A stretch of 52,228 nucleotides of DNA from Bacteroidaceae bacterium (GTDB lineage: Bacteria; Bacteroidota; Bacteroidia; Bacteroidales; Bacteroidaceae), in contig JAGBBX010000005.1 of the NCBI GenBank assembly GCA_017938245.1, positions 1 through 52,228 of the forward strand. Reading direction: 5' to 3'. The position numbers and the translations under genes were made by a program. This document shows, piece by piece, positions 6,346 through 28,053 of the stretch (its first letter is position 1; every line of letters starts with the position of its first letter). The notes beneath the pieces are model-generated. The model searched no databases, was not told the origin of the DNA, and worked only from the letters and a program-made list of their open reading frames with translations.

Positions 6346-7221
6346 TTACAAAGATTGCCTCGCATATATTCTCTTCAAACAATATATGAGCGACTCTCGC
6401 CAATGCGGAATATCCACCCCAAAAGTACTCTTTATCTTGCTCTTGTCGAGCACCGAATATGGAGGACGCGTCACCGGCGAAGGAAACTCATTGCTGTGGC
6501 AAGGCTCTATGCGGCAGTTCTTATGTCCAACGAGACGTGCTATCTCAACGGCAAAGTCGTACCACGAGCAGACACCCTCGTCGCTGAAATGGTAAATACC
6601 CTCGTTACCACTGTAGAGATTACCCTCGATAATAGAAAATATTGTAAGCGCAAGGTCGCCTGCGTATGTAGGTGAACCCACCTGGTCGAATACGACTTTT
6701 ATACTCTCTTTCTCGGCTGTGAGACGAAGCATTGTCTTAACAAAATTATGACCGAATTCGCTGTATAGCCACGCAGTACGTATTACAATAGCCTTACAAC
6801 CTACTCGCTTAACCGCCTCTTCTCCGGCCAATTTAGTGCGTCCGTATGCACCAAGAGGGGCAAGAGACATATCCTCGGTACGCGGTGTGTTGCCGTCGGT
6901 TCCAAAGACATAATCGGTGGATATATGAAACAATGTGCCATCGACACTCTTTACAGCCTTTGCGATATTCTCCACAGCAGTGGCATTTACCTTGTAAGCA
7001 GTCTCTTCATCACTCTCGGCTTTGTCGACATTGGTATATGCGACACAGTTAACAACCACTTCTACCCCATTCTCTGAGACGAATCGTTGCACAGCGTCGG
7101 CATCGGTTACATCAAGTTCCTCAATATCTGTAAAAAGATAATTATTGGACGACAATTCGCCCAAACGACGCATCTCATTGCCAAGTTGACCATTGGCACC
7201 GGTTACTAAAATCGTCTTCAT
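6346..7221 (-). CDS. rfbD: dTDP-4-dehydrorhamnose reductase
   Basis: A 291-residue short-chain reductase that performs the last NAD(P)H-dependent step of dTDP-L-rhamnose synthesis. The glycine motif TGANGQLGNEMR is at residues 7-18, the ISTDYVFGT segment supplies the catalytic Ser/Thr, and YGRTK holds the catalytic Tyr and Lys. Length fits RmlD. The start overlaps the stop of rfbC (ATGA), so the two are translated together. The partner genes rfbA and rfbB are about 11 kb away in the exopolysaccharide operon on the opposite strand. Confidence 0.95.
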   Translation of the reverse strand: MKTILVTGANGQLGNEMRRLGELSSNNYLFTDIEELDVTDADAVQRFVSENGVEVVVNCVAYTNVDKAESDEETAYKVNATAVENIAKAVKSVDGTLFHISTDYVFGTDGNTPRTEDMSLAPLGAYGRTKLAGEEAVKRVGCKAIVIRTAWLYSEFGHNFVKTMLRLTAEKESIKVVFDQVGSPTYAGDLALTIFSIIEGNLYSGNEGIYHFSDEGVCSWYDFAVEIARLVGHKNCRIEPCHSNEFPSPVTRPPYSVLDKSKIKSTFGVDIPHWRESLIYCLKRIYARQSL

Positions 7222-7790
7222 TCGTAAAGATTCTCGTTATAATCGAACAGATAGTCGGCATCGGAGAGTCTCTTATGATGTTTATCTTTCTCTGAGAGAA
7301 TCACCTTATCGGCAGGAATATGCCAATCAATAGCCAACTGTTCATCGTCCCAAGCTATTGCCCCCTCGCTCTCGCGGCAGTAGTAATTATCGCATTTATA
7401 TTGAAATATCACCTCGGGTGTAAGCACCGAGAATCCGTGAGCGAAGCCGCGCGGAATAAAAAGCTGACGGTGGTTCTCTTCGCTCAGCTCTACTGCGACA
7501 TATTTCCCGAATGTAGGCGAGCCTTTTCTTATATCAACCGCAACATCAAGCACTGCACCTTTTACAACACGTACCAGCTTGCTTTGCGAATGTTTGCCTT
7601 TCTGAAAATGCAGCCCACGCAACACCCCGTATGATGATTTTGACTCGTTATCCTGCACAAACTCCATTGGGCGCACATTTTTGTTGAAATCGGCCTGCGA
7701 AAATGTCTCCTTAAAGTAGCCACGTTCGTCACAGATTACACGAGGTTCAATAATCACCACCCCATCAATATCTGTCTTTATATATTCCAT
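7218..7790 (-). CDS. rfbC: dTDP-4-dehydrorhamnose 3,5-epimerase
   Basis: A 190-residue cupin epimerase of the RmlC family, converting dTDP-4-keto-6-deoxyglucose to the L-lyxo form. The diagnostic stretch GVLRGLHFQ carries the catalytic His; KLVRVVKGAVLDVAVDIR and FIPRGFAHGFSVL are the core cupin strands. Length is standard. It is the first gene of a leftward unit with rfbD. The region upstream (7812-8006) is a repeat-like element with terminal inverted repeats rather than an obvious promoter. Confidence 0.96.
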   Translation of the reverse strand: MEYIKTDIDGVVIIEPRVICDERGYFKETFSQADFNKNVRPMEFVQDNESKSSYGVLRGLHFQKGKHSQSKLVRVVKGAVLDVAVDIRKGSPTFGKYVAVELSEENHRQLFIPRGFAHGFSVLTPEVIFQYKCDNYYCRESEGAIAWDDEQLAIDWHIPADKVILSEKDKHHKRLSDADYLFDYNENLYE

Positions 7791-8123: not shown

Positions 8124-11100
8124 TTACTTCTGCACCTTGATAAGTTCGAACTCGGCACCCGAACCAAAGTCCTGACCATTCTGTGAGCTAAGGGCAGTGA
8201 ATCTTACGTAACGTGCCTTCACGGGCTCCTTAAAGATTACAACCTGCTGCTTGCTGTTTTTCTCGAACTCGCCCTCACATACCGGCTCGCTCCAGTTCTT
8301 ACCGTCGTTGCTTATCTGTATTCTATAGGCCTTGATATTACCATTGTCGCCATCCTGACGAGGCAGATACTTAAAGCCCTTAATCATTGTCTCCTCGGCA
8401 GCATCAAAGTCAATCCAGTGAGGATAGCTTGCCACTGTTACCGAATACATTGTATGCCATATTGTAGAGGGGTCGCCATCGACGAGCTTAGAAGCCTCGT
8501 TACCATTCTCCTGGCTCGATGCAAATACCACTGTTACGGGAATTGCACTTACCTCGGGATAGCTGTAGGTAGCGGCGAGGTCGGGAGTAGCTTTCTCCCA
8601 AACTGTAATATCGCCACCCTTGCTCATATCAATGGGCTGTGTGTAGAGAGTCTTTTTGCCACGCTTGCCAATCTTATAATAAATCTGTGCGCCATCCTTC
8701 TTGCAACTCATTGTAAGAGTACCCTTAAGGTCGCGTGACAATACAACGGGAACAACACCCGACGAAAGAACATTAGCCTTCTGAGTATAGTCGTCGCCCT
8801 TAACGACAGGACGGATGATAAAGCCCATTGTATTCTCTACCGACTTAACGCGGTCGTAGTCGAGAGGACCACCCTGACCACAGCTGTTACCACCAAGACC
8901 GTTAACCTTCTTGTCGATATGCAACCAGGTACCCGAAGAGGCAGGCAACTGATAGGGGTGAGCAGCAAGAGTAAGCTCTACGTCGTTCCAAGGAAGTGCT
9001 GTTGTCGACATACCCTCGGTAGCAACAAAGATAAGACCCTCGCCATTATCATTTGTGAGCGCAGCCCAACGTACATCCTCACGGTTAGCCATATCCTGTG
9101 GCTTGGGGAAGTGAACAAACTGGTCTTTTACAGTGCTGCTATACTGCTCGATGAACGAACCCGAGCAACGGTCGTTGTAGTTATTCCAGGGGCCGCGACC
9201 ATAGTAGGTATAATTCTTAAACTCGGCAGGCAACTGAATCTCGTAACCAAGACGAGCAAGGTCGAGGCTCTTGTTACCGCTGAGACTGCTGTTGAACTCG
9301 ACAGAGCCATCGGGATAGATAGTGTAAATACGGTTCGAGATAAAGTGGAAGTCATTGGCACCAAAGGGACGCGCATCTTCAACAAATTTCCAAGTATTAT
9401 CGTCGTTCTTCACACGACGCACGGCGTTGGGAGCCTGTGAATAAACTGTATACTGCAATACTACGCTACCATCCTTATTCACCTTTGAGACGAATGAAAT
9501 TACGCTATCCTGCAAATTATGGAGACCATTTGCATACCAGTTATTCCAAGCCCAATTATCGTTGTCAACGGGAGCACGATAAGCGCCAATCTTCATCACA
9601 TTACCATCGGCAAAAATCTCTTTACTGTTGTAAGCAACACTCTTGAACACACCCTTGGCATTATCGAATACAATAGAGAACGAACCATCGACAGCCGATA
9701 CTGTGGTTGTTACATTATCCTTGCTCTTCTCCATCTTAGTCTTTGCACCCTTAGCAACGTCGGCAAGCAGGAGACTCTTCTCGGCAGCCTTCAGAGGAAG
9801 CTGCTCCTCCATCTGCACATAACCCTTCTTTGCCCACGGCTGGTCTTTCTTCAGAAGAAGCTGAATCTTCACGAAATACTCCTTATCGGCCTTCATCTGA
9901 TAATTACCAAACTGCAATTTAAACTCCTTGCTTGTGCGGGGAGCAATTACCATATCGGGCATAAAGAAGTGCTCAACCTCTTTACCATCCTCCCACAGAG
10001 AAGCGCGGATATTCATATCGCACAAGCATTTGAAGTAACGTTTGTTGAAAATCTTAACATTGCCATTCTCCTGCATAGTGATACCGACATTCTGGTACAC
10101 TTTCTTAACCTCCCAATACTGTGGCTTGGGCGAGTGGTCGGGGAACATAACACCATTCATACAGAATGTGTGGTCATTGGGACGGTCGCCAAAGTCGCCA
10201 CCATAACCCATATAACGGTCACCTGTCTTGGAATCTACGTTCCAAAAAGCCTGGTCGGCCCAGTCCCAGATGGCACCACCCATAAAGAAGTTTGTGCTCT
10301 CCATTGCATCCCAGTAATCCTTGAGGTTACCGCCTGCATTACCCATACAGTGTGCATACTCCGAAATGTGGAAAGGATACTTAATTCCTGCGTTACCTTG
10401 TACTGCATACTGCACCCAACCGATTGAGGGATACTGGTTAGAACCCATATCCACGATGTTATTGTTACGTTCGTACTGAACAGGACGTGTAGTATCAAAA
10501 GCCTTAAGTGCCTCGTATGCACGTACAAAGTTTACACCGGGGCCTGCCTCGTTTCCAAGCGACCATATAACAACCGAAGGACGGTTCATTGTGGCGTATG
10601 CCATCTCCATTACACGTGCAACGTGTGCGTCCTCGAACTCGGGAACGTGAGACAACGATGCTGCATCATAATAATATTGGTGACTCTCGATGTTAGCCTC
10701 GTCCTCGAGATAAATACCGTACTTATCGCACAGATAGTACCAATAGGGGTCATCGGGATAGTGCGAGTTACGCACGTGGTTGATGTTACCCTGAAGCATC
10801 AGCATAACCTCTTTGTGCATCTGCTCGCGTGTGATGGCGTGTCCGCGCTCAAGATTACTCTCGTGACGGTTTACACCCTTCATCTTGATAGGTTTACCGT
10901 TGAGATAGTAGTAGCGTCCTGCAAGACCAAACTCATCATCCTCGGCCTTAGTATCGCGAATCTCAACCTCACGGAAACCAATATAGGTAGATGCAGTCTC
11001 AACTACTCGACCTTTCTTGTCAATCAACTGCACAAGCAGAGTGTAACGATTAGGTTCCTCGGCACTCCACTTTGCAGGATTCTCAACAGCGATAGCAAGT

Positions 11101-12146
11101 TCAGCGGTAGTCTTTGCACCGGGTTCAACAACAACAAGTTCACCAACAGCATTTGCACCCTCTACGATTGCATTATCATCGCTGTAAAGTGCATTCTTGT
11201 AAAGCTGTGCCTGAAGTTTATACCCCTTTGCTTTTTTCTTGGCAAGGTTACGTACATCCACAGCAATCTTTGCTACAGCATCCTTATACTCGGCATCGAG
11301 GTCGGTTACTACACGAATGTCGCGAAGCTCAAGAGGATTGGTCGATGTAAGATAAACATCGCGGAAGATACCCGGCAGACGGAACATATCCTGAGACTCG
11401 AGGAACGAAGCATCGCTGTTACGATAAACCTCTACTGCAACAGTATTCTCACCCTCGACAAGATACTTTGTAATGTTAAATGCGGCAAGGTTACGCGAGT
11501 TCTTAGAGAATCCCACATATTTACCGTTTATCCAAAGATAGAAGAAGGGGTCTACACCGTCGAAATTAAGATAAACCTGACGGTCTTTCCACTCGGCAGG
11601 AACAGTAAAGTTACGACGATACGAACCAACCTCGTTACGATTCTTATATGTTGTATGATGCTTTGCGGGTTCGCGCATTACACCACCCTTCCAGTCACCC
11701 ACAGCAACCGAGTGTTTGAAGATTACCGGTTGGTTTACATAGATAGGAGTACCATACTTTTGACTGCCATCCTTCTGCAAGCCATAGACATTCCAGTTCA
11801 TAGGAACCTCTACCTTATCCCAAGCCGACACATCATAATCGGTCTTATAAAAATTCTCGGGACGTTCCCAAGGGTTACCTACCCAATGGAAACTCCAAGT
11901 TCCGTTAAGCGACATCTGATAATCGCTATACTCGGGAAGTACTTTTCGTGCACTCTCCTCATTGGCAAAAGTAAAAAACCAACCTTTAGGCTGCTCCTTA
12001 TTCAGGGCCAACTCTGTCGGAGACTCCCACTCGCCACCGGTGGGAGCGACTACATCGCCGTATGCAAAGCCCTTCAGATTCTGCGCCATTGCCGAGGCAA
12101 AAAACGAGAGAGCAACTACGGCCAAAGAAACGATTCGTTTTCTCAT
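8124..12146 (-). CDS. Secreted GH2 beta-galactosidase with discoidin-like domain
   Basis: A 1340-residue glycoside hydrolase family 2 enzyme with a signal peptide (residues 1-21, ending SAMAQ). Order: sugar-binding jelly roll (about 70-270), immunoglobulin-like domain, TIM barrel (about 400-690) with MKGVNRHESN and HVRNSHYPDD, a Bgal_small-like beta-sandwich (YYGRGPWNNYNDR), then a C-terminal F5/8 type C / CBM32-like domain (about 1205-1340; KLVDGDPSTIWHT, KAYRIQISNDGKNW, ARYVRFTA). Predicted catalytic acid/base is E533 in LGNEAG and nucleophile E596 in ISEYAH. It probably acts in the periplasm or at the cell surface on beta-galactosides. No SusC/SusD pair or regulator is adjacent, so it is not in a typical polysaccharide-utilisation locus. 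Substrate is inferred from the LacZ-like motifs; other beta-glycosides are possible. Confidence 0.93.
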   Translation of the reverse strand: MRKRIVSLAVVALSFFASAMAQNLKGFAYGDVVAPTGGEWESPTELALNKEQPKGWFFTFANEESARKVLPEYSDYQMSLNGTWSFHWVGNPWERPENFYKTDYDVSAWDKVEVPMNWNVYGLQKDGSQKYGTPIYVNQPVIFKHSVAVGDWKGGVMREPAKHHTTYKNRNEVGSYRRNFTVPAEWKDRQVYLNFDGVDPFFYLWINGKYVGFSKNSRNLAAFNITKYLVEGENTVAVEVYRNSDASFLESQDMFRLPGIFRDVYLTSTNPLELRDIRVVTDLDAEYKDAVAKIAVDVRNLAKKKAKGYKLQAQLYKNALYSDDNAIVEGANAVGELVVVEPGAKTTAELAIAVENPAKWSAEEPNRYTLLVQLIDKKGRVVETASTYIGFREVEIRDTKAEDDEFGLAGRYYYLNGKPIKMKGVNRHESNLERGHAITREQMHKEVMLMLQGNINHVRNSHYPDDPYWYYLCDKYGIYLEDEANIESHQYYYDAASLSHVPEFEDAHVARVMEMAYATMNRPSVVIWSLGNEAGPGVNFVRAYEALKAFDTTRPVQYERNNNIVDMGSNQYPSIGWVQYAVQGNAGIKYPFHISEYAHCMGNAGGNLKDYWDAMESTNFFMGGAIWDWADQAFWNVDSKTGDRYMGYGGDFGDRPNDHTFCMNGVMFPDHSPKPQYWEVKKVYQNVGITMQENGNVKIFNKRYFKCLCDMNIRASLWEDGKEVEHFFMPDMVIAPRTSKEFKLQFGNYQMKADKEYFVKIQLLLKKDQPWAKKGYVQMEEQLPLKAAEKSLLLADVAKGAKTKMEKSKDNVTTTVSAVDGSFSIVFDNAKGVFKSVAYNSKEIFADGNVMKIGAYRAPVDNDNWAWNNWYANGLHNLQDSVISFVSKVNKDGSVVLQYTVYSQAPNAVRRVKNDDNTWKFVEDARPFGANDFHFISNRIYTIYPDGSVEFNSSLSGNKSLDLARLGYEIQLPAEFKNYTYYGRGPWNNYNDRCSGSFIEQYSSTVKDQFVHFPKPQDMANREDVRWAALTNDNGEGLIFVATEGMSTTALPWNDVELTLAAHPYQLPASSGTWLHIDKKVNGLGGNSCGQGGPLDYDRVKSVENTMGFIIRPVVKGDDYTQKANVLSSGVVPVVLSRDLKGTLTMSCKKDGAQIYYKIGKRGKKTLYTQPIDMSKGGDITVWEKATPDLAATYSYPEVSAIPVTVVFASSQENGNEASKLVDGDPSTIWHTMYSVTVASYPHWIDFDAAEETMIKGFKYLPRQDGDNGNIKAYRIQISNDGKNWSEPVCEGEFEKNSKQQVVIFKEPVKARYVRFTALSSQNGQDFGSGAEFELIKVQK

Positions 12147-13490: not shown

Positions 13491-14276
13491 ATGAGGAAGA
13501 TTTTAACAATTTTCAGCCTGCTGTTAATGCTGGCATCGTGCAGTTCCACAAAGGATATTGCATATTTTCAGGATGTAGAGCACGGCGCAACAACAAGTGT
13601 TGCCCATAAGCAATTGACACTTCTCCCCGAAGACAAGATCAGCATTTTGGTAAACACCCGAAATCAAGAGCTTACCAATAGTCTGAATTTGCCGTATGTA
13701 ACCCGACAAATCGGTAACAGCGCCGCCTCAACATCACAGGGTATGGCCGGCTACACCATCGACAAAGACGGTTATATCTACTTTCCTCAAATAGGGAAAT
13801 TACATATTGCAGGAATGACCCGCAGCGAAGTTTCAGAATTCATCAAGAAAGAGCTTAACGAGAAAGGTATTGCAAAAGATGCCATTGTCACTGTAGAATT
13901 CTCAAACCTCAAATACTCGGTACTTGGTGAAGTTAAGTCGCCCAACACATACGCAATAGACCGCGACGCGATAACCATTCTCGATGCGATAAGTAAAGCA
14001 GGAGACCTCACGATACAAGGTGAAAGAACAAATATTCAGGTCATAAGAAGAGAAAACAATAACGAAGAAAAAGTCTACACATTGAATCTTTGCTCTTTGC
14101 AAGATATTCAGCAGTCACCTGCATACTACATACAGCAAAACGATGTTATCTACGTTAAGCCCAACAGAATGCGTGAGCGTCAGTCGACAGTAAACGGCAA
14201 TAACATACGCTCATCGGCATTTTGGATTTCTATAGCATCACTACTTACCTCTGTAATCAACCTAATCACACGATAA
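13491..14276 (+). CDS. Outer-membrane polysaccharide export lipoprotein (Wza-like)
   Basis: A 261-residue lipoprotein with lipobox LASC-17. The export domain starts near residue 40 (LLPEDKISILVNTRNQEL), followed by YTIDKDGYIYFPQIGKLHIAG and an SLBB-type segment (YSVLGEVKSPNTYAIDRDAITILDAISKAGDLT). A C-terminal hydrophobic helix (FWISIASLLTSVINLI) anchors or gates the ring. It forms the outer-membrane channel for exopolysaccharide or capsule with the Wzc-like kinase encoded four bases downstream. First gene of the operon. Confidence 0.94.
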   Translation: MRKILTIFSLLLMLASCSSTKDIAYFQDVEHGATTSVAHKQLTLLPEDKISILVNTRNQELTNSLNLPYVTRQIGNSAASTSQGMAGYTIDKDGYIYFPQIGKLHIAGMTRSEVSEFIKKELNEKGIAKDAIVTVEFSNLKYSVLGEVKSPNTYAIDRDAITILDAISKAGDLTIQGERTNIQVIRRENNNEEKVYTLNLCSLQDIQQSPAYYIQQNDVIYVKPNRMRERQSTVNGNNIRSSAFWISIASLLTSVINLITR

Positions 14277-14279: not shown

Positions 14280-16778
14280 ATGGATAACAATCTCATAAAC
14301 AACTTCAACCGTCAATCCGAGGAGGAGTTCAACATCAGAGACTTTTTGTTTCTTTGTTTAGCTAAATGGCGTTGGTTTGCACTATCGCTGCTTATTTGCT
14401 TGAGTATAGCTGTATATAAAGTATCGACCACCCACCCAACATACTCGCGCTACACCGATATCCTCATTAAATCGGGACAGCAGGGTAATATGAGCGAACA
14501 GATGGAGAAATTCGCCTCAATGGGCGCATTTCGTGGCAACACCACTGTATATAACGAGATTTATGCGCTTCAGTCCCCCTCGAACATTTACGAGGTTGTG
14601 AACCGATTGAATCTTGATATGAACTACGAGCGTAAGGGCTTTTTATACAATAAAGTTCTCTATGGCAGTGAGTTACCTTTCAAAGCCACTATAGTTGGCA
14701 TCCCCGATAATGCGTTTGCATCATTTAAGGTAACACTGCGTCCCGATGGCAGTTACACCATCAACGAGTTCAACTATGCATACGGTTCCGAGAGCTACGA
14801 AATAGACCCGAAAGTAGAGAAAACCGGCCGTCTTTCGACTTTTAAATCGGATATTGCAGGAGGTGACACAATCGACACACCGTTTGGACGACAAATAGTA
14901 ATTGCATCTACTCCATATTACAAAGAGGGTGACGAGGAGCAGGTAATATATGTAACCCGCAGAGGATTGTATAGCACCGCTAACAGCTATGCAGCAAGAT
15001 TGTCATTCAGTCTTAAAGATAAAGAAGCCGATATTATTACAGTATCAATGGGTGACTTATCGACCAAACGTGCCGAGGATGTTCTTAGAACTGTTATCGA
15101 GGTATATAATGAAAGATGGATTGCCGACAAGAACCAACTTGCCGAACACACCTCTATCTTCATCAACGACCGTCTCGAAGACATAGCCCTTGAGCTCGAG
15201 AATGTAGATAGTATAATATCGACATACAAGAGCCAGAATCTGCTGCCCGATATTAACTCTACTACATCGATGTATATGAGCCAAAATCAAAAGATAAGCA
15301 GTCAGATTATCGACCTTAACAACGAACTTGCGATATCAAACTTTATCTTGGATTATCTGGCCGACAACAAGACCAAGAACCAGATACTCCCCTCGCTGCA
15401 ACTGAAAAACTCGGGCGTAAGTTCTCAGATAGAGAAATACAATCTCGCAATACTCCAGCGTAACAACCTGGTAGCAAACAGTAGCGAGAACAACCCCCTT
15501 GTAATAGAGCTTGACGACTATTTAGGTTCGGTTCGCGACGGTATTATCAGTTCGGTGAGCAACCTTATAAATACTCTTAAGACTCAGATAAGCACCTTAG
15601 AACAAGAGAGAGAGAATACCAAAGAGTTGTTGGCAAAGAACCCTGCACAGTCTAAGTTCCTTACAGCAGAGGGTCGTAATCAGACAGTGAAAGAGCAGCT
15701 ATATCTCTTCCTGCTACAGAAACGCGAAGAGAATGAACTCTCAAAAGCTTTTACCGCCTACAACACACGCATCGTAACACCTCCTACAGGTAGCTTAAGT
15801 GCGATTGGCCCCAACAAGAAGAAGACATATATGTTTGCTTTTGCCATTGCACTCATCATCCCCATTGGCTTGCTGATAGCCCGCGAATTCCTTGATACAA
15901 AGATTCGCAGTCGTAAAGACCTTGAGGGAATAGATATCTCGATAATTGGCGAAATACCCCTTGCTTATCGTCGCAAGCGTCAGCTACCTTGGAGAAAACA
16001 GAGTGAAAAGCTTAAGATTGTTGTCAAGAACGGAAGCCGTAATATTATAAACGAGGCATTCCGTGTAATGCGTACCAATATCGACTTTATGGTTAAAGAT
16101 AACGACCAACACGTTATCATCATAACATCATTCAACCCCGGTAGCGGTAAATCGTTCATTACAATGAACTTGGGAGCATCAATGGCACTAAAGGGCAAGC
16201 GAGTGTTGCTCATCGACGGTGATATGCGCCACGCATCACTGAGTACATTTGTGAATGCTCCTAAACTCGGACTCAGCAACTACCTTGCAGGACTTGAAGA
16301 GAACATAGAGAGCTGCAAGATAAAGAGCGAAGTATTCCCCGGACTCGAAGTAATTCCCGTAGGAACAATTCCTCCCAATCCCACCGAGTTGCTCGAGAAT
16401 CCACGCTTCAATAAATTAATCGAGTCGTCACGCAGTAAATACGACTTTGTAATAATCGACTGTCCTCCCATTGACATTGTTGCCGATACAAGTATCATAG
16501 AGAAATCGGCCGACCGCACAATGTTCGTTGTCCGTAGTGGTCTTTTGGAGCGCAGTATGGTACCCGAGATTGATAATCTTGTTAAGGAAGAGCGTTTCAA
16601 GAGCATCAGCCTTATTATCAACGGTATCGAAGACAAAGGTGGACGTTATAGCGGACGCTACGGCTACCGTTATGGCTACCGTTACGGATACAGCTATGGT
16701 TACGGATATGGTTACAGCCACGGTTATGGCTATTACAGTGATGAAGAGTCTGACAAATCCGATAGTACAAAACTGTAA
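14280..16778 (+). CDS. Polysaccharide copolymerase with BY-kinase domain (Wzc-like)
   Basis: An 832-residue inner-membrane protein. A Wzz-type N-terminus has a first membrane segment near 33-50 (FALSLLICLSIAVYKV). A long periplasmic coiled-coil region ends at the GNVR-like domain and second membrane segment (YMFAFAIALIIPIGLLIA, about 520-537). The cytoplasmic tyrosine-kinase domain has Walker A GSGKS (621-625), Walker A' LLIDGDMRH (about 643-651) and Walker B VIIDCPP (about 724-730). The last about 45 residues form a striking Tyr/Gly/Arg tail with GYRYGY-type repeats, the autophosphorylation cluster that controls Wza-Wzc assembly. It works with the Wza-like protein upstream to control chain length and export. 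Confidence 0.95.
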   Translation: MDNNLINNFNRQSEEEFNIRDFLFLCLAKWRWFALSLLICLSIAVYKVSTTHPTYSRYTDILIKSGQQGNMSEQMEKFASMGAFRGNTTVYNEIYALQSPSNIYEVVNRLNLDMNYERKGFLYNKVLYGSELPFKATIVGIPDNAFASFKVTLRPDGSYTINEFNYAYGSESYEIDPKVEKTGRLSTFKSDIAGGDTIDTPFGRQIVIASTPYYKEGDEEQVIYVTRRGLYSTANSYAARLSFSLKDKEADIITVSMGDLSTKRAEDVLRTVIEVYNERWIADKNQLAEHTSIFINDRLEDIALELENVDSIISTYKSQNLLPDINSTTSMYMSQNQKISSQIIDLNNELAISNFILDYLADNKTKNQILPSLQLKNSGVSSQIEKYNLAILQRNNLVANSSENNPLVIELDDYLGSVRDGIISSVSNLINTLKTQISTLEQERENTKELLAKNPAQSKFLTAEGRNQTVKEQLYLFLLQKREENELSKAFTAYNTRIVTPPTGSLSAIGPNKKKTYMFAFAIALIIPIGLLIAREFLDTKIRSRKDLEGIDISIIGEIPLAYRRKRQLPWRKQSEKLKIVVKNGSRNIINEAFRVMRTNIDFMVKDNDQHVIIITSFNPGSGKSFITMNLGASMALKGKRVLLIDGDMRHASLSTFVNAPKLGLSNYLAGLEENIESCKIKSEVFPGLEVIPVGTIPPNPTELLENPRFNKLIESSRSKYDFVIIDCPPIDIVADTSIIEKSADRTMFVVRSGLLERSMVPEIDNLVKEERFKSISLIINGIEDKGGRYSGRYGYRYGYRYGYSYGYGYGYSHGYGYYSDEESDKSDSTKL

Positions 16779-16804: not shown

Positions 16805-16844
16805 AGTTTGCATATACCAATTCGCGAATTGGTATATGCAAACT
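16805..16844. repeat. Perfect 40-base palindrome
   Basis: AGTTTGCATATACCAATTCG is followed immediately by its exact reverse complement, with no loop. It lies in the 104-base gap between the Wzc-like gene and the nucleotidyltransferase fusion gene. It lacks a proper U-run, so it may be an operator, an RNA-processing hairpin or an attenuator within the operon. Confidence 0.85.
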
Positions 16845-16882: not shown

Positions 16883-18703
16883 GTGCAAGCAATAATTTTA
16901 GCAGCAGGAATGGGGCGACGCCTTGGCGAGTTTACCAAGGAGAACACAAAATGTATGGTGCAGGTAAACGGCACACGTCTCATCGACCGTTTATTGAACC
17001 AATTATCCAAGTTATCTCTCACTCGAATAGTTATTGTCATTGGCTATGAGGGAGATAAAGTCGTCGACCACGTCGGATACGAATATCAAGGAATTAAGAT
17101 TGAGTATATAAAGAATCCTATATACGACAAAACAAATAACATCTACTCACTTGCTCTTGCCAAGAAACAGATGCAAGAAGACGACACCTTGTTAATAGAG
17201 AGCGACCTGATCTTTGATGACAAGATGTTCGAACTAATCATAGGAACCCACTACCCCAATCTCGCACTTGTGGCAAAATACGAGAGTTGGATGGACGGTA
17301 CAATGGTCTGTATCGACAGCGATAACAATATCATAAATTTTGTACCCAAGGATGCTTTCGACTACAGTCAGAAAGAGAAGTATTACAAGACCATAAATAT
17401 ATACAAACTCTCGAAAGAATTTTGTAGGACAAAGTATCTCCCCTTCCTCGAAGCTTACACAAAAGCAGTAGGAAACAACGAGTACTACGAGAATGTACTG
17501 CGCATAATCACTTTCCTTAACAACAATGAGCTAAAGGCCCTACCCGTAACCAACGAAAAATGGTACGAGATAGACGACAAGCAAGATCTTGACATAGCCG
17601 AAGCTCTTTTTGCCGAAGAAAAAGACATACTTCGCAAATACTATGGCAGGTTCGGCGGCTATTGGCGTTTCCCGCAGATGCTCGATTTCTGTTATCTTGT
17701 CAACCCCTATTTTGGCAGTTCAAGGATTATCGACGAAATGCAAGCCAATTTTGGGACATTGGTAATGGAGTATCCCTCGGGAATGAAAGTAAACACCCTG
17801 CTCGCCAGCAAATGTTGGGGAATAAGAGAAGAGTACATAATACCGGGCAATGGAGCAGCCGAGCTAATCAAGGCATTGATGGAGTTGCTACCCGGCACAG
17901 TAGGAATAATACGTCCCACTTTCGAGGAGTACCCCAATCGCCGCGATAAAGACTCGCTCGTAACATTCACTCCACAGAACGACGAATTCCGATATACAGC
18001 ACAAGACCTAATGGAATTCTTCGACAAAAACCACGCCGACAACATATTACTCATAAACCCCGACAACCCATCGGGTAATTTCATTCCAAAGAACGATATA
18101 TTGTCATTAGCATTCTGGTGCGAGAAGAAAGGAATCCGCCTTATTGTCGACGAGAGCTTTGTCGACTTCAGCGAAGATTGGGAGCAAAACACCCTGCTTC
18201 ACGACCACATACTCGAGAGTTACCCCCGTATGATGGTAATGAAATCCATCAGCAAGAGCTACGGTGTTCCGGGAATACGTTTAGGTATACTCTGCTCGGC
18301 CGACAAAGAGATTATCTCTAAGATAAAGCAGATGGTAAGCATTTGGAATATAAATTCCTTTGCCGAATTCTTTATGCAGATATTCAATAAGTACGAGAAA
18401 GAGTACAAACGAGCTTGCGAACGTTTCATCGAAGAACGCAACCGATTCTACAAGCTATTATGCGAAATACCTTATTTACGAGTAATCCCCTCACAAGCCA
18501 ACTATTTTTTGGTAGAGGTGCAACCACCATATACTGCAAATGGTTTGGTGCTTAAGATGCTTAAAAATTTCAACATTCTTATGCGCGATTGTTCGGGGAA
18601 AGCCGGTCTGCAAGGTAAACAGTATATGCGTATAGCAGTACGAGATAAAAAAGACAACAACCGCCTTATAACAGCTTTAAAGCAGTTAGAGTCGGCAGAA
18701 TAA
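16883..18703 (+). CDS. Nucleotidyltransferase fused to CobD-like PLP enzyme
   Basis: A 606-residue two-domain protein with a GTG start; the nucleotidyltransferase motif begins at once (ILAAGMGRRLGEFT, residues 4-17), so there is no room for a later start. Residues 1 to about 235 resemble LicC/PntC-type cytidylyltransferases (TNNIYSLALAKKQM, ESDLIFD). Residues about 250-606 form a fold-type I PLP enzyme: NPDNPSGNF, DESFVDFS and SISKSYGVPGIRLG with PLP Lys458. These resemble CobD (threonine-phosphate decarboxylase) more than histidinol-phosphate aminotransferase. Inference: it may make and activate an amino-alcohol phosphate (for example phosphoethanolamine to CDP-ethanolamine) or aminophosphonate for decorating the polysaccharide. 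No PepM or phosphonopyruvate decarboxylase gene is near, which argues against a phosphonate. The actual substrates are unknown. Confidence 0.82.
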   Translation: MQAIILAAGMGRRLGEFTKENTKCMVQVNGTRLIDRLLNQLSKLSLTRIVIVIGYEGDKVVDHVGYEYQGIKIEYIKNPIYDKTNNIYSLALAKKQMQEDDTLLIESDLIFDDKMFELIIGTHYPNLALVAKYESWMDGTMVCIDSDNNIINFVPKDAFDYSQKEKYYKTINIYKLSKEFCRTKYLPFLEAYTKAVGNNEYYENVLRIITFLNNNELKALPVTNEKWYEIDDKQDLDIAEALFAEEKDILRKYYGRFGGYWRFPQMLDFCYLVNPYFGSSRIIDEMQANFGTLVMEYPSGMKVNTLLASKCWGIREEYIIPGNGAAELIKALMELLPGTVGIIRPTFEEYPNRRDKDSLVTFTPQNDEFRYTAQDLMEFFDKNHADNILLINPDNPSGNFIPKNDILSLAFWCEKKGIRLIVDESFVDFSEDWEQNTLLHDHILESYPRMMVMKSISKSYGVPGIRLGILCSADKEIISKIKQMVSIWNINSFAEFFMQIFNKYEKEYKRACERFIEERNRFYKLLCEIPYLRVIPSQANYFLVEVQPPYTANGLVLKMLKNFNILMRDCSGKAGLQGKQYMRIAVRDKKDNNRLITALKQLESAE

Positions 18704-18728: not shown

Positions 18729-19613
18729 ATGAAAGGAATTGTATTAGCAGGAGGTTCGGGAACACGTCTCTACCCCATAACAAAAGGAGTGAGCAAACAG
18801 TTGCTCCCAATATACGACAAGCCAATGGTCTACTACCCTATTTCCGTTCTTATGCTTGCCGGTATTCGTGAGATACTCATAATATCAACCCCTCAAGACC
18901 TCCCCGGTTTCCGTCGCTTGCTTGGCGACGGTAGCGACTATGGCGTACAATTCGAATATGCCGAGCAACCCTCACCCGACGGTCTTGCACAGGCATTTAT
19001 CATAGGAGAAAAGTTTATCGGCAACGATGCAGCCTGCCTTGTTCTTGGCGACAATATTTTCTATGGCGCCGGATTCACATCGATGCTTCGTGAAGCACTT
19101 CGTACAGCCGAGGAGGATGGAAAAGCAACCGTGTTCGGCTACCGTGTCGAAGATCCCGAGCGTTATGGTGTAGCCGAGTTTGACGAGCAAGGCAATTGCC
19201 TTTCAATAGAAGAAAAGCCTCAACATCCCAAGAGTAACTATGCAGTAGTGGGACTCTACTTCTATCCTAATAAAGTTGTAGACATAGCTAAACAGATAAA
19301 ACCCTCGGCACGAGGTGAATTAGAGATAACAACCGTAAACCAATACTTCCTTGCCAACAACGAGCTGAAAGTACAGACATTAGGTCGTGGTTTCGCCTGG
19401 TTGGACACCGGAACCCACGACTCACTAAGCGAGGCATCAACTTTTGTCGAGGTAATAGAAAAACGACAAGGCCTTAAGATAGCCTGTTTAGAGGGAATAG
19501 CCTACCGTCGCGGATGGATAGACGAAGAGAAGATGCGCCAATTGGCTCAACCAATGATAAAGAACCAATATGGTCAATATCTGTTGAAAGTAATAGAGGA
19601 TTCCAAGAGATAA
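18729..19613 (+). CDS. rfbA: Glucose-1-phosphate thymidylyltransferase
   Basis: A 294-residue RmlA enzyme that makes dTDP-glucose from dTTP and glucose-1-phosphate. The N-terminus [20 protein letters not shown] is the nucleotide-binding signature, followed by [23 protein letters not shown] and [13 protein letters not shown] are further family motifs. Length is standard. It is the first committed step of dTDP-rhamnose synthesis, followed 36 bases later by rfbB. Confidence 0.97.
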
Positions 19614-19649: not shown

Positions 19650-20792
19650 ATGGATTTCAGAAGAAATATATTAATAACAGGCGGCGCCGGATTCATAGGC
19701 AGTCACGTTGTACGTCTTTTTGTAAACAAATACCCCGACTACCATATAATATGCCTCGACAAGCTCACCTACGCGGGTAATCTGGCTAATCTTAAAGACA
19801 TTGAGGATGTCCCTAACTACACCTTTATAAAAGCCGATATTTGCGACTACGAGACGATACAATCGCTTATGCAGCAGTACAATATCGACGGCATTATCCA
19901 CCTTGCAGCCGAAAGCCACGTCGACCGCAGCATAAAAGACCCTTTCACCTTTGCACGTACAAACGTAATGGGTACCCTATCGCTTCTGCAGGCTGCAAAA
20001 CTCTATTGGGAGTCGCAACCCGAGCGCTATGACGGGAAGCTATTCTACCACATCTCAACCGATGAGGTATACGGCGCACTCGAACTAAGCCATCCCGAAG
20101 GCATCGAGCCCCCCTTTACCACAACAGCCTCATCGGGTGAGCATCATCTTGCCTACGGAACCGATTTCTTCTACGAGACAACAAAATATAACCCGCATAG
20201 TCCCTATTCGGCCTCAAAAGCAAGCAGCGACCACTTTGTACGCGCTTTTCACGATACATACGGAATGCCTACAATAGTCACCAACTGCTCGAACAACTAC
20301 GGTCCCTATCAGTTCCCCGAGAAACTTATACCTTTGTTCATAAATAACATACGCCGGCGTAAGCCACTACCCGTATATGGCAAGGGCGAGAATGTACGCG
20401 ATTGGCTCTATGTTGTAGACCACGCACGTGCCATAGATATAATCTTCCACAAAGGAGAGCCTGCCGAGACATACAACATCGGAGGCTTTAACGAGTGGAA
20501 GAACATAGACCTTATAAAGGTAATGATAAAGACTGTAGACCGTCTTTTAGGCAACCCCGAGGGATACTCCGACGAGCTTGTTACCTATGTAACCGACCGC
20601 GCCGGCCACGACCTGCGTTATGCAATCGATAGCACCAAACTAAAGAACGAATTAGGTTGGGAGCCCTCACTGCAGTTCGAAGAGGGAATAGAAAAAACCG
20701 TACGTTGGTATCTCGACAATCAAGAGTGGTTAGACAACATAATCAGTGGAGACTACGAGAGATACTACGACGATATGTATAAAAACAGATAA
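19650..20792 (+). CDS. rfbB: dTDP-glucose 4,6-dehydratase
   Basis: A 380-residue extended short-chain dehydrogenase of the RmlB family that converts dTDP-glucose to dTDP-4-keto-6-deoxyglucose. It has the NAD-binding [12 protein letters not shown] near residue 9, HLAAESHVDRS, the catalytic STDEVYG (Thr-Asp-Glu), and the active-site YSASK. The protein is slightly longer than the usual about 350 residues because of an internal segment near ATTASSGEHHLAYG, as seen in other Bacteroidales. Operon position between rfbA and the polymerase. Confidence 0.96.
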   Translation: MDFRRNILITGGAGFIGSHVVRLFVNKYPDYHIICLDKLTYAGNLANLKDIEDVPNYTFIKADICDYETIQSLMQQYNIDGIIHLAAESHVDRSIKDPFTFARTNVMGTLSLLQAAKLYWESQPERYDGKLFYHISTDEVYGALELSHPEGIEPPFTTTASSGEHHLAYGTDFFYETTKYNPHSPYSASKASSDHFVRAFHDTYGMPTIVTNCSNNYGPYQFPEKLIPLFINNIRRRKPLPVYGKGENVRDWLYVVDHARAIDIIFHKGEPAETYNIGGFNEWKNIDLIKVMIKTVDRLLGNPEGYSDELVTYVTDRAGHDLRYAIDSTKLKNELGWEPSLQFEEGIEKTVRWYLDNQEWLDNIISGDYERYYDDMYKNR

Positions 20793-20810: not shown

Positions 20811-21998
20811 ATGTTATTACTACTACAAAGCTGCCTTGTATATGGTCTGATGATTCTCGTGATGCTGCACGCAGGCAAATTTGCCTACGAGCAGCAATAT
20901 CCCGATGGTTTTCTTGGCAACGATATATATGCCAATGAAAAGTTATCTTTTTTGGATATTATAACAAAATCACATTTTATAATACCAATACTGGTATTCT
21001 GTCTGTTTGCCGCTTTACGATATAATGTAGGTGTAGATTGTGGCTCATATAGGCAAGATTTCTACGATATGCTTCAAAAAGGTAGCACAGGGCGTGATAA
21101 CTACGAAATGGGCTACCTGTTCCTTTTGAAAATAACGACACTATTTACCAACAAGCACTACCTGCACCTTGGCTTACTATCCTTCTTGCAGATATCACTG
21201 CTATATTATGCTATGCGTAAAGAGAGCTATCTCTTTATGTTTTACGGGCTTGCATTGTTTTTTACCGGAACATATTTCTCACTTATGAATGGAATCAGAC
21301 AGAATATTGCAGCTACGGCATTTGTAGCAATGATTCCTCTATTCCTAAATAAGAAGTACTGGATATACATATTACCGGCAGTAATTGCAGCAATGCTCTT
21401 TCATAAGAGTGCCATCCTTATTATTCTATTTGGTTTTCTCGGCTACATACTCAGAAACAAGATGTTAAGTTCCAATATACAATTAGCAATACTGTTTCTG
21501 TGCCTTGTATGTATGAACGAATTTGGACTCGACTTTTTAAGATTTAACAATATATCTGATTACGGTGCACAAATCGGATACCAAGAAGGAGAGATAGAGG
21601 GATATGTCGAAAACGAGAATATGGATATTACATTTGGCCTGCGTTCCTGTATTCTTCTCTTAAACTACATTATAGTAATACTTTATAGTAGAAAATTGGA
21701 CGAGTTCTTTAATTCTCAGAAATTCCGTTGCTGCTACAATATTTTTTTCTGGGGTATTTGTCTAAGTCACCTTTTCTACAACAATTTTACTATGAAACGA
21801 ATACTATTCTACACTACAATATTCAATCCTTTAATAATATCGTATCTACTTTTTTACCTTTGGTTCAATAAGAACAAAAGCAATTACACAGTTCTCACCA
21901 TTGTTATAGCAACCCTTACAACTTTCTTTGGATATTTTCTTTTTGAAGCAGTACAACTCTATCCCTTTGAGAGTTTGTTATACAAATTCGATTTTTAA
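20811..21998 (+). CDS. EpsG-family polysaccharide polymerase (Wzy-like)
   Basis: A 395-residue polytopic inner-membrane protein with about ten hydrophobic segments. The EpsG signature is present: RYNVGVDCGSYRQDF near residues 79-93, a variant of the RxxxGxDxxxY pattern, and GIRQNIAATAFVAM near 164-177. EpsG/Wzy proteins polymerise repeat units on the periplasmic face. It sits 18 bases after rfbB. Base composition falls here compared with rfbA and rfbB, typical of the variable central part of polysaccharide loci. Confidence 0.85.
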   Translation: MLLLLQSCLVYGLMILVMLHAGKFAYEQQYPDGFLGNDIYANEKLSFLDIITKSHFIIPILVFCLFAALRYNVGVDCGSYRQDFYDMLQKGSTGRDNYEMGYLFLLKITTLFTNKHYLHLGLLSFLQISLLYYAMRKESYLFMFYGLALFFTGTYFSLMNGIRQNIAATAFVAMIPLFLNKKYWIYILPAVIAAMLFHKSAILIILFGFLGYILRNKMLSSNIQLAILFLCLVCMNEFGLDFLRFNNISDYGAQIGYQEGEIEGYVENENMDITFGLRSCILLLNYIIVILYSRKLDEFFNSQKFRCCYNIFFWGICLSHLFYNNFTMKRILFYTTIFNPLIISYLLFYLWFNKNKSNYTVLTIVIATLTTFFGYFLFEAVQLYPFESLLYKFDF

Positions 21999-22011: not shown

Positions 22012-22299
22012 GACCATAGCGAAAAAGAGATTATAAGCGAGGATCTTATTTTTAATCTCGATTTTATTTCACATTCGACCCAAGTAGCCTTATTGTTTAT
22101 AGGTAATAATCGAACAGCCATACAGCAATATATGTCATCACCACTCCCCTACAGCAACAAGAAAGCCTGGCTAAAAGAGCATCTCTCCATCCCCCTATGG
22201 CAGGCACTTTACCGAACCTCAATTGGAAGGAGCTCCCCAAATATCCAAAAATATTTTTCTACCTATGCGCAAAGAAAAAGATATTTGCGCTCTATTTAA
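22012..22299 (+). pseudogene. Possible remnant of a polysaccharide-locus gene
   Basis: An open frame without a good start (TTG at 22093 is the first candidate) encodes a basic tail including YMSSPLPYSNKKAWLKEHLS and FSTYAQRKRYLRSI. This looks more protein-like than the overlapping frame read into the following gene. It could be the C-terminal fragment of a lost glycosyltransferase or pyruvyltransferase gene, or chance. No family is recognised. Confidence 0.25.
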
Positions 22300-22379
22300 T
22301 TTCGGTGTTGCGCAAGAGAATATTAGCGATAACCGGTAAATCGATTAACATCAAACACAGCCATTTGAACATTATCCAA

Positions 22380-23348
22380 ATGAAAAAAGAGTCTGACGGA
22401 GTATACAAGCCACATTTTAAAGATTATATATCCTTTTTTATAGGAGATATAAAAATTTGTATTAAGCAATTACGCTATATACATAAACTGCGTTTCAAAC
22501 GTGCAAAAAAAAGAGGGGTTTTTTATATGGTTTTTGAACCGTTCCGAGGACACCCCGGACTGGCCGACCGCCTAAAGGCCATTATAAACACATATAATCT
22601 TGCAAAGTCAAACGGCTACGACTTTAAAATATATTATACTACACCATTCAAGCTATCCGATTATCTTACACCCAACAAAGATTGGGAATGTAGTATCGAA
22701 GAGTTGGAATATTCACTACAAGACACAAAATTTTTCCGAGAGATTAGTTGGAGAGAGCGTACCAAACTAAAGCCAAACAAACAATATCACTGTTACTATT
22801 ATTGTGGCAATACAATGCCACGTATTTTACCACACACAGGCTACAAGTGGTGCGACCTATTCAAGGAACTTTTTACACCAAGCACAAATTTAGTAAATGC
22901 ATACAAAGAGCTAAATATACCTCCACGTACGTATATATCGGTGCACATAAGATTTGTTAATGCATTAGAACAATTCGAGAACACCTTTTTCGATAATCAT
23001 TTGAAAGAGCAATCTCAACGCGATGCACTTATACAACGTTGCAAAAATGGCATAAGGAGCATAATCAAAGAAAACAAAGAAACACCTATATATGTATTCT
23101 CCGACAGCAAAGTATTTCTTAACTCATTAGGCGATTTACCCGTTTATACATTAGATAATTCAGAAATTAAACATATAAGTTCGACAAGCGGCGATAGCTC
23201 AACACTGAAAACATTTCTCGACCTATATGTAATGTCGCAATCACAAACCATATATAGATTCTGCGCACCCGAATTATATTCAATTTCCCATTATGCCTTA
23301 TTAGCAGCAACTATAGGCGATATACCTTTTTACGATTTAGATGTATAA
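22380..23348 (+). CDS. Fucosyltransferase-like glycosyltransferase
   Basis: A 322-residue protein from ATG 22380. The frame is open back to 22197, but the upstream part overlaps another protein-like frame and is not convincing, so the start is uncertain. GHPGLADRLKAI (about 58-67) and YISVHIRF (about 185) resemble the nucleotide-sugar-binding features of GT11/GT23-type alpha-fucosyltransferases (G-x-L-x-N/D-R and the H-x-R loop). No signal peptide. As the last gene of the exopolysaccharide operon it probably adds a sugar to the repeat unit; fucose as donor sugar is inferred only. A strong terminator follows. Confidence 0.6.
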   Translation: MKKESDGVYKPHFKDYISFFIGDIKICIKQLRYIHKLRFKRAKKRGVFYMVFEPFRGHPGLADRLKAIINTYNLAKSNGYDFKIYYTTPFKLSDYLTPNKDWECSIEELEYSLQDTKFFREISWRERTKLKPNKQYHCYYYCGNTMPRILPHTGYKWCDLFKELFTPSTNLVNAYKELNIPPRTYISVHIRFVNALEQFENTFFDNHLKEQSQRDALIQRCKNGIRSIIKENKETPIYVFSDSKVFLNSLGDLPVYTLDNSEIKHISSTSGDSSTLKTFLDLYVMSQSQTIYRFCAPELYSISHYALLAATIGDIPFYDLDV

Positions 23349-23588: not shown

Positions 23589-23689
23589 ATTAACCAACAA
23601 AGCCAATGACCACCGAGACACCACAATCAAACGAGCATAATAAGCAAGAGTACCAGCCTATGCATAACGGTGAGTTTAACACATCACCA
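23589..23689 (+). repeat. Direct repeat A, 5' end of the RhuM-Fic gene
   Basis: This 101-base segment recurs at 24629-24729 with roughly 87% identity at an exact offset of 1040 bases, which equals one gene length plus spacer. It starts with ATTAACCAACAAA, which at the second site is the gene's own 3' end. Confidence 0.9.
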
Positions 23690-24649
23690 ATTGCAATATA
23701 CACAAGTGAAGACAATACGATTTCGCTTGATGTAAAGTTGGAGAACGAAACCGTATGGCTGTCACAAGCACAGATGAGTCTATTATTTGATAAAGACCAA
23801 TCAGTAGTCGCAAGACATATTGCCAACGTTTTTAAAGAGGGAGAACTTGAAGAATATAGTAATATGCAAATTTTGCATAATACTTTTTCCAAATTCAAAC
23901 CAACAAAGGTTTATAGTTTAGATGTCATAATTTCCGTCGGCTACCGTGTAAAAAGCAAGCGTGGCACGCAGTTCCGCATTTGGGCAAACAGAGTGCTGAA
24001 AGACTACATTGTAAAAGGATATGCCATAAACGACAAGATAAGAATCGAGCATTACAACGAACTCAAAGATGTTGTCCGCTTGCTTGCACACACAGTCCAT
24101 TCACAGGAAAAACTGACCGATGAGCAGTCAAAAGGACTTTTCTCTGTCGTAAGCGACTATGTATACGCCCTCGACACTCTTGACCGTTACGACTACCAGC
24201 AACTGACAATTGAGAATACAACAAAAGAAGAACGCTTCCATGCGACTTATGAAAATGCAATGGAAGCAATCATGAGCCTCAAAGACAAATTCGGCGAGAG
24301 CAAGCTGTTTGCAAACGAAAAAGACAACTCATTCAAAAGCTCTATCGGACAGATATACCAGACCTTTGGCGGAGTAGAACTCTACCCCAGCATTGAAGAG
24401 AAGGCTGCAATGCTGCTATACCTTGTAACGAAGAACCACTCATTCAGCGACGGTAACAAACGCATAGCCGCAATGCTGTTCCTTTGGTTTATGGAGCGTA
24501 ACGGCATACTCTACCGCACTGATGGCAGCAAACGAATTGCCGACAACACACTCGTTGCATTAACGCTTATGATTGCCGAGAGCCGAACCGAGGAGAAAGA
24601 TATAATGGTAAAAGTAGTTGTAAACCTCATTAACCAACAAAACCTATGA
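23606..24649 (+). CDS. RhuM-Fic protein (Fic/Doc AMP-transferase-like)
   Basis: A 347-residue cytoplasmic protein. The N-terminal half (about 25-170) is the RhuM domain: VWLSQAQMSLLFDKDQSVVARHI, then KVYSLDVIISVGYRVKS-RGTQFRIWAN. The C-terminal half is a Fic/Doc domain with HSFSDGNKR at residues 278-286, matching the catalytic Hx(F)x(D/E)GNxR loop. Fic proteins usually transfer AMP or phosphate to proteins and often act as toxins; RhuM-Fic fusions are common in mobile islands but their targets are not known. A -7 box (TATCTTTG, 23524-23531) lies upstream. The stop overlaps the ATG of a truncated second copy, and its first 100 bases are duplicated there. Confidence 0.9.
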   Translation: MTTETPQSNEHNKQEYQPMHNGEFNTSPIAIYTSEDNTISLDVKLENETVWLSQAQMSLLFDKDQSVVARHIANVFKEGELEEYSNMQILHNTFSKFKPTKVYSLDVIISVGYRVKSKRGTQFRIWANRVLKDYIVKGYAINDKIRIEHYNELKDVVRLLAHTVHSQEKLTDEQSKGLFSVVSDYVYALDTLDRYDYQQLTIENTTKEERFHATYENAMEAIMSLKDKFGESKLFANEKDNSFKSSIGQIYQTFGGVELYPSIEEKAAMLLYLVTKNHSFSDGNKRIAAMLFLWFMERNGILYRTDGSKRIADNTLVALTLMIAESRTEEKDIMVKVVVNLINQQNL

Positions 24650-24738: not shown

Positions 24739-24842
24739 TTCAAAAACAGTCCTATATCGGCAAAAGTGAATGCCGTTTTTAGGAAATAAAAACAAAATGT
24801 GTTATAATACCTTGACAATAGGCAATATAGCACATTTTTATA

Positions 24843-26697: not shown

Positions 26698-26702
26698 AAA
26701 AG

Positions 26703-26739: not shown

Positions 26740-26755
26740 TTCAATGTCATTCTTA

Positions 26756-28012: not shown

Positions 28013-28053
28013 TTTATTGCGTTATATTCAATTCTAAAATAATATTGACTATG

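Follow-up and report, generated by a model that had tools for sequence, protein, structure and literature searches.

A cytidylyltransferase–PLP enzyme fusion from a Bacteroidaceae polysaccharide operon and its candidate role in a glycan-tailoring pathway through CDP-ethanolamine

A 52,228-nucleotide stretch of DNA from a Bacteroidaceae bacterium (contig JAGBBX010000005.1 of assembly GCA_017938245.1; the whole stretch is hereafter called the window) encodes a protein of 606 amino acids, at positions 16883-18703 of the + strand, in which a cytidylyltransferase is joined to a pyridoxal phosphate (PLP) enzyme. Comparison of this fusion with its relatives makes it reasonably likely, in our judgement, that the bifunctional protein yields cytidine diphosphate (CDP)-ethanolamine and that an imine reductase and then a LicD transferase would carry the product on to a capsule or exopolysaccharide. 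In this predicted pathway the PLP domain would remove the carboxylate of O-phospho-L-serine and the N-terminal domain would transfer cytidine monophosphate (CMP) from cytidine triphosphate (CTP), in either order. An NAD(P)H-dependent imine reductase, resembling either octopine dehydrogenase (OpDH) or ornithine cyclodeaminase/mu-crystallin (OCD), would condense a 2-oxo acid (pyruvate being the likeliest) with the amino group of ethanolamine phosphate or CDP-ethanolamine, to give an N-(1-carboxyalkyl)ethanolamine phosphate donor. A LicD-family transferase would then attach the group from this donor to a capsule or exopolysaccharide sugar as a phosphodiester. The fusion, one of two interchangeable reductases and the transferase together look like an undescribed tailoring pathway.

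To our knowledge no synthesis has been assigned to the N-carboxyalkyl ethanolamine phosphates of O-antigens, and none was found in the accessible portions of the open-access literature, which is not proof of its absence in print. The pathway would offer a testable gene set leading from serine phosphate to glycan, and a role for a 600-amino-acid protein that annotated plasmid records label only as class I/II aminotransferase. CDP-alcohol chemistry would here begin with a serine-phosphate decarboxylase, as it also would in an unfused trio of genes that hints at a lipid route, and the clean exchange of reductases suggests that a zwitterionic surface group is varied in bacteria of the gut and rumen through one gene.

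The fusion protein and its two domains

The open reading frame (ORF) starts with GTG and has no internal stop, while the reverse-strand frame opposite to it holds many stops and the longest listed opposing ORF inside it reaches 161 amino acids. Pfam places NTP_transf_3 on residues 3-122 (49.2 bits, cut-off 27) and Aminotran_1_2 on residues 315-599 (115.8 bits, cut-off 19.7), which bears out the original prediction, made from the sequence of the window, of a single polypeptide with a LicC/PntC-like and a CobD-like half; the two motifs that it quoted, DESFVDF and SISKSYGVPGIRLG, are indeed found at residues 423-429 and 455-468, with the PLP lysine at 458. A scan of genome contigs gave relatives' loci, the best 80 of 130 (together with the window, the 81 loci referred to below), that match nearly the entire query at 62-92% identity, so that a chance or assembly join can be ruled out. 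Their records comprise Bacteroidaceae, Prevotellaceae, Fibrobacter and other metagenome-assembled genomes (MAGs) and isolates, the closest being L005, a yak-rectum Bacteroidaceae MAG with 92% identity. Of 247 genomes sampled from the order (all at least 90% complete; the window's own genome, G000, was added to this sample, and at most five candidates were scored per genome), nine contain both halves, one of them, G228, as two adjoining ORFs.

The cytidylyltransferase domain (residues 1-245; 16883..17617, + strand) carries a PF12804 domain, Lys23, Glu106, Glu203 and the motif WYEIDD. The best solved relatives of the CYTIDYLYLTRANSFERASE domain are the PntC domain of Tde1415 (6pd1, 45.6 bits) and LicC (1jyk, 44 bits). 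E106 and E203 align in MAFFT with Glu104 and Glu196 of Tde-PntC (phmmer shifts the second of these positions by one residue, and the MAFFT version was adopted), and Lys23, Glu106 and Glu203 are invariant in 34 of 34 aligned fusions. According to the accessible part of PMC6697681, from which the roles of PntC residues Lys25, Glu104 and Glu196 are taken, the two glutamates face the amine of 2-aminoethylphosphonate (AEP); in LicC both positions are Asp, and that enzyme's preference for phosphocholine over phosphoethanolamine is 2700-fold. With its PF12804 domain, catalytic lysine and acidic amine site, the N-terminal domain is a predicted PntC/LicC-type enzyme for CTP and an aminoethyl phosphate or phosphonate.

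The PLP domain (residues 252-606; 17636..18700, + strand) resembles the decarboxylases CobD and SMUL_1544 and carries Lys458, Asp423, Arg583, Arg587 and Trp488. In the tree, the fusions, their unfused kin and SMUL_1544 (6oux) lie on one side with support of 100/99.7, and five CobD-type rows as well as HisC lie outside. SMUL_1544 is also the nearest solved relative by sequence and, by fold, ties with CobD as top match, with 25% identity over the aligned fold; this comparison covered residues 248-606, leaving the cytidylyltransferase fold outside, and used a predicted structure whose mean pLDDT (predicted local distance difference test) of 73.5 is too low for reading side chains. Conservation is nearly complete at D423 (29/29), K458 (28/29, the exception being L069), R583 (28/29) and R587 (29/29), and clade, top fold match, PLP lysine, aspartate and the two C-terminal arginines all assign the domain to the SMUL_1544 type. 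It scores below the cut-offs of CobD (TIGR01140, 181.4 vs 290.55 bits) and HisC (TIGR01141, 141 vs 276.6 bits), and residues 488 and 587 are the W and R of CobD-type enzymes, where HisC has F/Y and G/S. The fusion matches PF00155 and does not match the class V family PF00266 at E<=0.001, which sets it apart from AEP transaminases (AEPT).

The PLP domain therefore belongs, on the sequence tests made, with SMUL_1544 and is not a CobD, HisC or AEPT. The claim that it would be CobD-like rather than HisC- or AEPT-like holds in terms of Trp488 and Arg587, tree, fold and model scores, and the phylogeny once proposed as its check sets the domain beside SMUL_1544, apart from both CobD and HisC. A sugar nucleotidyltransferase joined to a plain aminotransferase was considered and rejected, since ESD and WYEIDD occur as in the PntC rows, where the window's RmlA has LGD, and since the PLP half is CobD-like. 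A fusion in which the PLP lysine is replaced by serine was seen in L069 (8631-10478), in whose genome neither reductase was found; it is possibly decaying or active as a cytidylyltransferase only.

Reductase and transferase genes beside the fusion

By profile search, 74 of the 81 loci hold a reductase gene, OpDH on 55 and OCD on 19, while none holds both and seven hold neither. The fusion ORF was called in 78 of the 80 loci and in the window, and a next ORF is present in 77; this gene is a reductase in 65 of them (48 OpDH, 17 OCD), and the places at -1 and +2 are varied, with 40 and 39 different clusters. An exact 4-bp overlap with the fusion is seen in 31 of 64 same-strand partners (ORF starts as called here). 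Grouping of 79 fusions at 95% identity left 69 groups, namely 44 with OpDH, 17 with OCD, two with both kinds in different genomes and six with none. The OpDH proteins combine PF02317 (114.9 bits against a cut-off of 30 for the gene of L026) with an N-terminal NAD-binding domain, further members having been assigned by clustering and profile. Two of the seven loci without a reductase (L005, L070) end within 140 bp of the fusion, and a reductase was found elsewhere in the genome for L005 and L083 (OCD) and for L046 (OpDH).

The two reductase families are exchanged as a single gene between near-identical loci. L026 and L023, with fusions of 98.7% identity, can be aligned at 82% until the fusion gene ends, differ in the partner gene and then align at 94% over 9 kb; likewise L041 and L048 align with L042 at 93-94% before and at 90-91% after the partner gene. 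LicD is found on 54 of the 81 loci, and OpDH and LicD are one protein in L064 (Octopine_DH 116 bits, LicD 138 bits) and, by profile, in L066. The cultured Prevotella ruminicola KHT3 (L021) carries the genes for the fusion, OpDH and LicD one after another. A survey of neighbours for a phospho-amino-alcohol transferase, as suggested beforehand, thus succeeded across the relatives and turned up no LicD or other recognised gene of this kind in the window's own operon. Since most of the relatives examined have a reductase gene after the fusion, the glycan probably ends up carrying an N-carboxyalkylated ethanolamine phosphate. More tentatively, the OpDH/OCD swap might be a stereochemical switch of a surface antigen in which the imine is closed from opposite faces, so that capsules alike in all else would carry the (R) or the (S) form of N-(1-carboxyalkyl)ethanolamine phosphate. 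The same reductase families might also act on AEP, in which case Bacteroidota of rumen and gut, and Fibrobacter, would use one module for decorations of both the phosphate and the phosphonate kind; we regard this whole reading as possible but doubtful. Polymers of Fibrobacter S85 reportedly contain N-(2-hydroxyethyl)alanine, which plays no part in the argument here.

In L017 (11821-14061) and L031 (11837-14067) two genes stand between fusion and reductase; in L031 Pfam identifies one as an amino acid permease and the other as a further cytidylyltransferase (NTP_transf_3), PntC-like in alignment. DUF1015 genes adjoin the fusion or lie two genes from it in L013 (1196-2443), L014 (7939-9204) and L110 from Fusobacterium (10820-11869); that they supply serine phosphate is a guess.

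Co-occurrence in the order sample points in the same direction as linkage. OCD at E<=1e-30 occurs in four genomes and OpDH at E<=1e-60 in three, and six of these seven are fusion genomes, that is, 6 of 9 genomes with the fusion against 1 of 238 others. When OpDH is counted at E<=1e-30 it is found in 7 of the 247 genomes, the four added ones having no fusion and a distant OpDH (29-30% identity). Among 392 genomes of the phylum, OCD was found in G000 only and no OpDH was found at E<=1e-30, the latter a weak negative, as this sample held no known positive for OpDH.

The window itself contains no reductase by profile search in all six frames. Its genome, a draft of 63 contigs that is 85.95% complete, encodes one full fusion (contig C30), one OCD (C40) and one LicD (C37), and gave at this completeness no match to OpDH or PepM. 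The OCD (PF02423, 88 bits against a cut-off of 24; below the cut-off of all 13 NCBIfam models matched) shares 78% identity with the OCD next to the fusion in L012, and the LicD is 63-65% identical to LicDs near the fusions of L029 and L014. It adjoins a gene read by eye as ribosomal protein S16, directly after which the fusion stands in L015, L028 and L029. The pathway in this bacterium thus seems whole but dispersed over three contigs. In L006, whose fusion is 80% identical, the same operon has an extra block between fusion and rmlA that is absent from the window and consists of OpDH, a UDP-GlcNAc 2-epimerase-family gene and, by eye, a nucleotide-sugar-dehydrogenase-like gene.

Weighing substrates, products and phosphonates

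A parallel from phosphonate metabolism bears on the product. The genome G201 (locus L093), which has no fusion at E<=1e-60, encodes an OCD 65% identical to that of G000, and this gene overlaps by 4 bp a 611-amino-acid PntC-AEPT fusion that stands behind Ppd and PepM; PepM, Ppd and PntC-AEPT are all above their NCBIfam cut-offs, and the AEPT gene of L093 matches PF00266 and TIGR03301. Since a related reductase here follows a true PepM-Ppd-PntC-AEPT operon, the product of our fusion should resemble AEP, and by this analogy the simplest product that such a reductase could share seems to be ethanolamine phosphate or CDP-ethanolamine. A more distant OpDH (142 bits) lies within a PepM cluster on a Rhizobium plasmid.

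PepM was searched for with TIGR02320 in 59 genomes, 58 with the fusion and G201. It was absent above cut-off from 54 of the 58 and without a match in the window's genome, and we agree with the earlier argument that absence of PepM speaks against a phosphonate; G228 gave one match below cut-off, G201 one above it. In three of the four PepM-bearing fusion genomes the PepM contig differs in length from that of the fusion, and the fusion is independent of PepM. A separate observation concerns the fourth, that of L016, where in L104 (7814-11936), in the same polysaccharide region as the fusion, PepM-like and Ppd-like genes flank a 371-amino-acid gene, by eye an alcohol dehydrogenase, that would yield hydroxyethylphosphonate.

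Several points weigh against the proposed pathway. The cooperation of its three parts in the window's genome rests on relatives, the parts being on different contigs. Neither reductase was found in the genomes of L069, L070 (where the contig stops after the fusion) and L076 (a genome of 1.3 Mb), nor, at E<=1e-10, in three of the nine fusion genomes of the order sample (G091, G245, G136). The Fisher p of 2e-9 for co-occurrence is uncorrected for kinship and uses a threshold picked after seeing the matches, and at E<=1e-30 the background with OpDH is 5 of 238. The AEP-OCD parallel rests on one genome, and the four PepM regions retrieved for fusion-bearing genomes (L103-L106) contained neither OCD nor OpDH. 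PepM itself does exceed its cut-off in four of the 58 such genomes; in that of L016 it is some 16 kb downstream of the fusion, on a contig of equal size. Outside Bacteroidota the relatives stand beside different genes, so the presence of the fused unit is not enough to define the pathway. Finally, G091 and G245, in which no reductase was found, have a LicD-like gene (by Pfam in G245) directly after the fusion, and may therefore make unmodified ethanolamine phosphate.

Plain ethanolamine phosphate is also the alternative that survives best as a general account, in which CDP-ethanolamine is made, the glycan bears the unmodified group and the reductases serve otherwise, for instance in amino acid supply or removal. 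Besides G091 and G245, the reductase-free operon of the window and the unfused relatives that stand beside a CDP-alcohol phosphatidyltransferase-like gene (by Pfam in L102 only) would fit it. The reductase is, however, the most constant neighbour of the fusion (65/77), two families replace each other at one spot and one of them is fused to LicD, and we consider this account unlikely.

The proposed pathway starts from serine phosphate, and the original prediction had left the choice between CDP-ethanolamine and CDP-aminopropanol. The former is the better supported, because SMUL_1544 is the closest relative, a related reductase occurs in an AEP operon and the glutamate pair is of PntC type, and CDP-ethanolamine from phosphoserine is the best reading. 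Use of threonine phosphate, leading to CDP-(R)-1-aminopropan-2-ol, is improbable, given the score of 181 against the CobD cut-off of 290.6, the clade with SMUL_1544 instead of the CobDs, and the related OCD gene of the AEP operon, AEP being an amine that lacks a methyl branch. A role in tailoring AEP or phosphonoalanine would find favour in the unfused PLP kin on rhizobial plasmids with PepM (once also with octopine dehydrogenase), in the four PepM-bearing fusion genomes and in PntC as the nearest solved cytidylyltransferase domain; against it stand the PepM results for the window's genome and most fusion genomes and a PLP domain that is class I/II and CobD-like, not class V, which make it very improbable. 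Least probable of all is a transaminase making, for instance, serinol phosphate from dihydroxyacetone phosphate and thence CDP-serinol, for although the fold family has many transaminases and Cj1437 of the Campylobacter jejuni capsule performs this reaction according to the accessible part of PMC11800397, the CobD-type Trp488 and Arg587, the clade with a decarboxylase and the AEP parallel speak against it.

Genomic setting, wider family and comparison with known systems

The fusion stands in a polysaccharide operon, as had been stated from the start, with its genes in a row on the + strand: a Wza-like export lipoprotein (13491..14276; Pfam Poly_export, SLBB), a Wzc-like chain-length/tyrosine kinase (14280..16778; TIGR01007, 148.8 bits, cut-off 108), the fusion and, 25 bp after it, RmlA, glucose-1-phosphate thymidylyltransferase (18729..19613; over the TIGR01207 cut-off), RmlB, dTDP-glucose 4,6-dehydratase (19650..20792; over the TIGR01181 cut-off), and an EpsG-family membrane protein (20811..21998; Pfam EpsG) that is a candidate polymerase. 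A 383-amino-acid protein (22197..23348, +) has no Pfam or NCBIfam match and is by eye a possible glycosyltransferase. On the - strand lie an RmlD-like gene (6346..7221; Pfam RmlD_sub_bind), for dTDP-rhamnose supply, and an RmlC-like gene (7218..7790; Pfam dTDP_sugar_isom). Between the wzc-like gene and the fusion, a perfect palindrome of 40 bp (16805..16844), single-copy in the window and with a 92.5% match in L005, may be a regulatory hairpin or a protein site. The short polysaccharide operon is followed by an island (23606-28755) with a RhuM-Fic protein, an Mrr-like nuclease just below the Pfam cut-off, a C5 cytosine methylase and a phage integrase.

Of the records in a plasmid collection, 15 match 80% or more of the fusion at a single place, and some of these were inspected. 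A Fusobacterium vincentii plasmid carries a relative with 49.7% identity, that of Gloeothece is followed by a methyltransferase and LicD, that of Erwinia by a CDP-alcohol phosphatidyltransferase, which a shorter Agrobacterium relative likewise precedes, and further inspected plasmid relatives are from Pseudonocardia, Priestia, Bradyrhizobium and Rhizobium (halves unfused, PepM nearby). Unfused halves followed by a CDP-alcohol phosphatidyltransferase-like gene occur in L095 (1922-4489), L100 (6693-9256), L101 (710-3273) and L102 (4001-6578), the last gene being identified by Pfam in L102 (55.3 bits, cut-off 22) and matched by eye in the other three. Such neighbours fit a CDP-activated amino alcohol and suggest that the fused unit reaches beyond glycan synthesis; the unfused trio is a candidate for making an ethanolamine phospholipid or sphingolipid from serine phosphate. 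On a plasmid of Rhizobium sp. 007 (L116, 1-12343), PepM, cytidylyltransferase genes, a CDP-alcohol phosphatidyltransferase, a CobD-like PLP enzyme, octopine dehydrogenase and a methyltransferase stand together, possibly a phosphonoalanine-decarboxylation version of the same chemistry. Plasmid pBM700 of Priestia megaterium (L114, 3534-11638) has a fusion near ATP-grasp genes and an extra 1-deoxy-D-xylulose 5-phosphate (DXP) reductoisomerase gene, presumably the set expected for a fosmidomycin- or fosfoxacin-like product. The OpDH-like gene (26.8%) of a Proteus record lies in a different cluster, beside a gene that is by eye cysteine-synthase-like.

Among known systems, SMUL_1544 matches the PLP domain by sequence, fold and tree, but is a stand-alone enzyme with the low fold-wide identity given above; we take it to be the L-serine phosphate decarboxylase of norcobamide synthesis in Sulfurospirillum multivorans, hence of a cobamide and not a glycan pathway. 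The LicC/LicD phosphocholine pathway resembles our proposal in that a cytidylyl-activated group is handed by LicD to a glycan of the cell surface; it is not known to include a PLP domain or a reductase, and LicC differs from the fusion in having Asp instead of Glu at the amine site and in preferring choline phosphate. FrbH of FR-900098 biosynthesis is said to join a cytidylyltransferase to a PLP decarboxylase, so the fused architecture itself is not new. Its cytidylyltransfer to 2-amino-4-phosphonobutyrate is cited in the accessible part of PMC6697681, and its likeness to our fusion is one of described domain plan; it belongs to a phosphonate antibiotic pathway. Tde1415 of Treponema denticola (6pd1) likewise fuses a cytidylyltransferase with the same glutamate pair to an amine-making PLP enzyme, but this half is a class V AEP transaminase, and the protein acts in a PepM/Ppd cluster with CMP-AEP as product.

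Cj1436 of the C. jejuni capsule, compared by description only, is a serine phosphate decarboxylase forming ethanolamine phosphate, as predicted for the fusion, whereas its ethanolamine phosphate is amidated to glucuronate with no CDP activation described in the part of PMC11800397 available. The predicted product type has its counterpart in N-[(R)-1-carboxyethyl]ethanolamine phosphate (R-Cet-EtnP), which the accessible text of PMC9630907 lists among the O-polysaccharide structures of Proteus and Klebsiella and to which that text assigns no biosynthetic gene; the likeness is one of structure. As to the carboxyethyl-ethanolamine genes of Proteus, the main text of PMC5560731, as far as accessible, contains none of the terms carboxyethyl, ethanolamine, cyclodeaminase, LicD or opine. 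The module probably works, to judge from its sequences, like LicC-LicD or PntC, except that its own serine-phosphate decarboxylase stands where those have a kinase or make AEP, and that the amine is reductively alkylated in an added step, and for the glycan group predicted in this way R-Cet-EtnP is a known O-antigen example.

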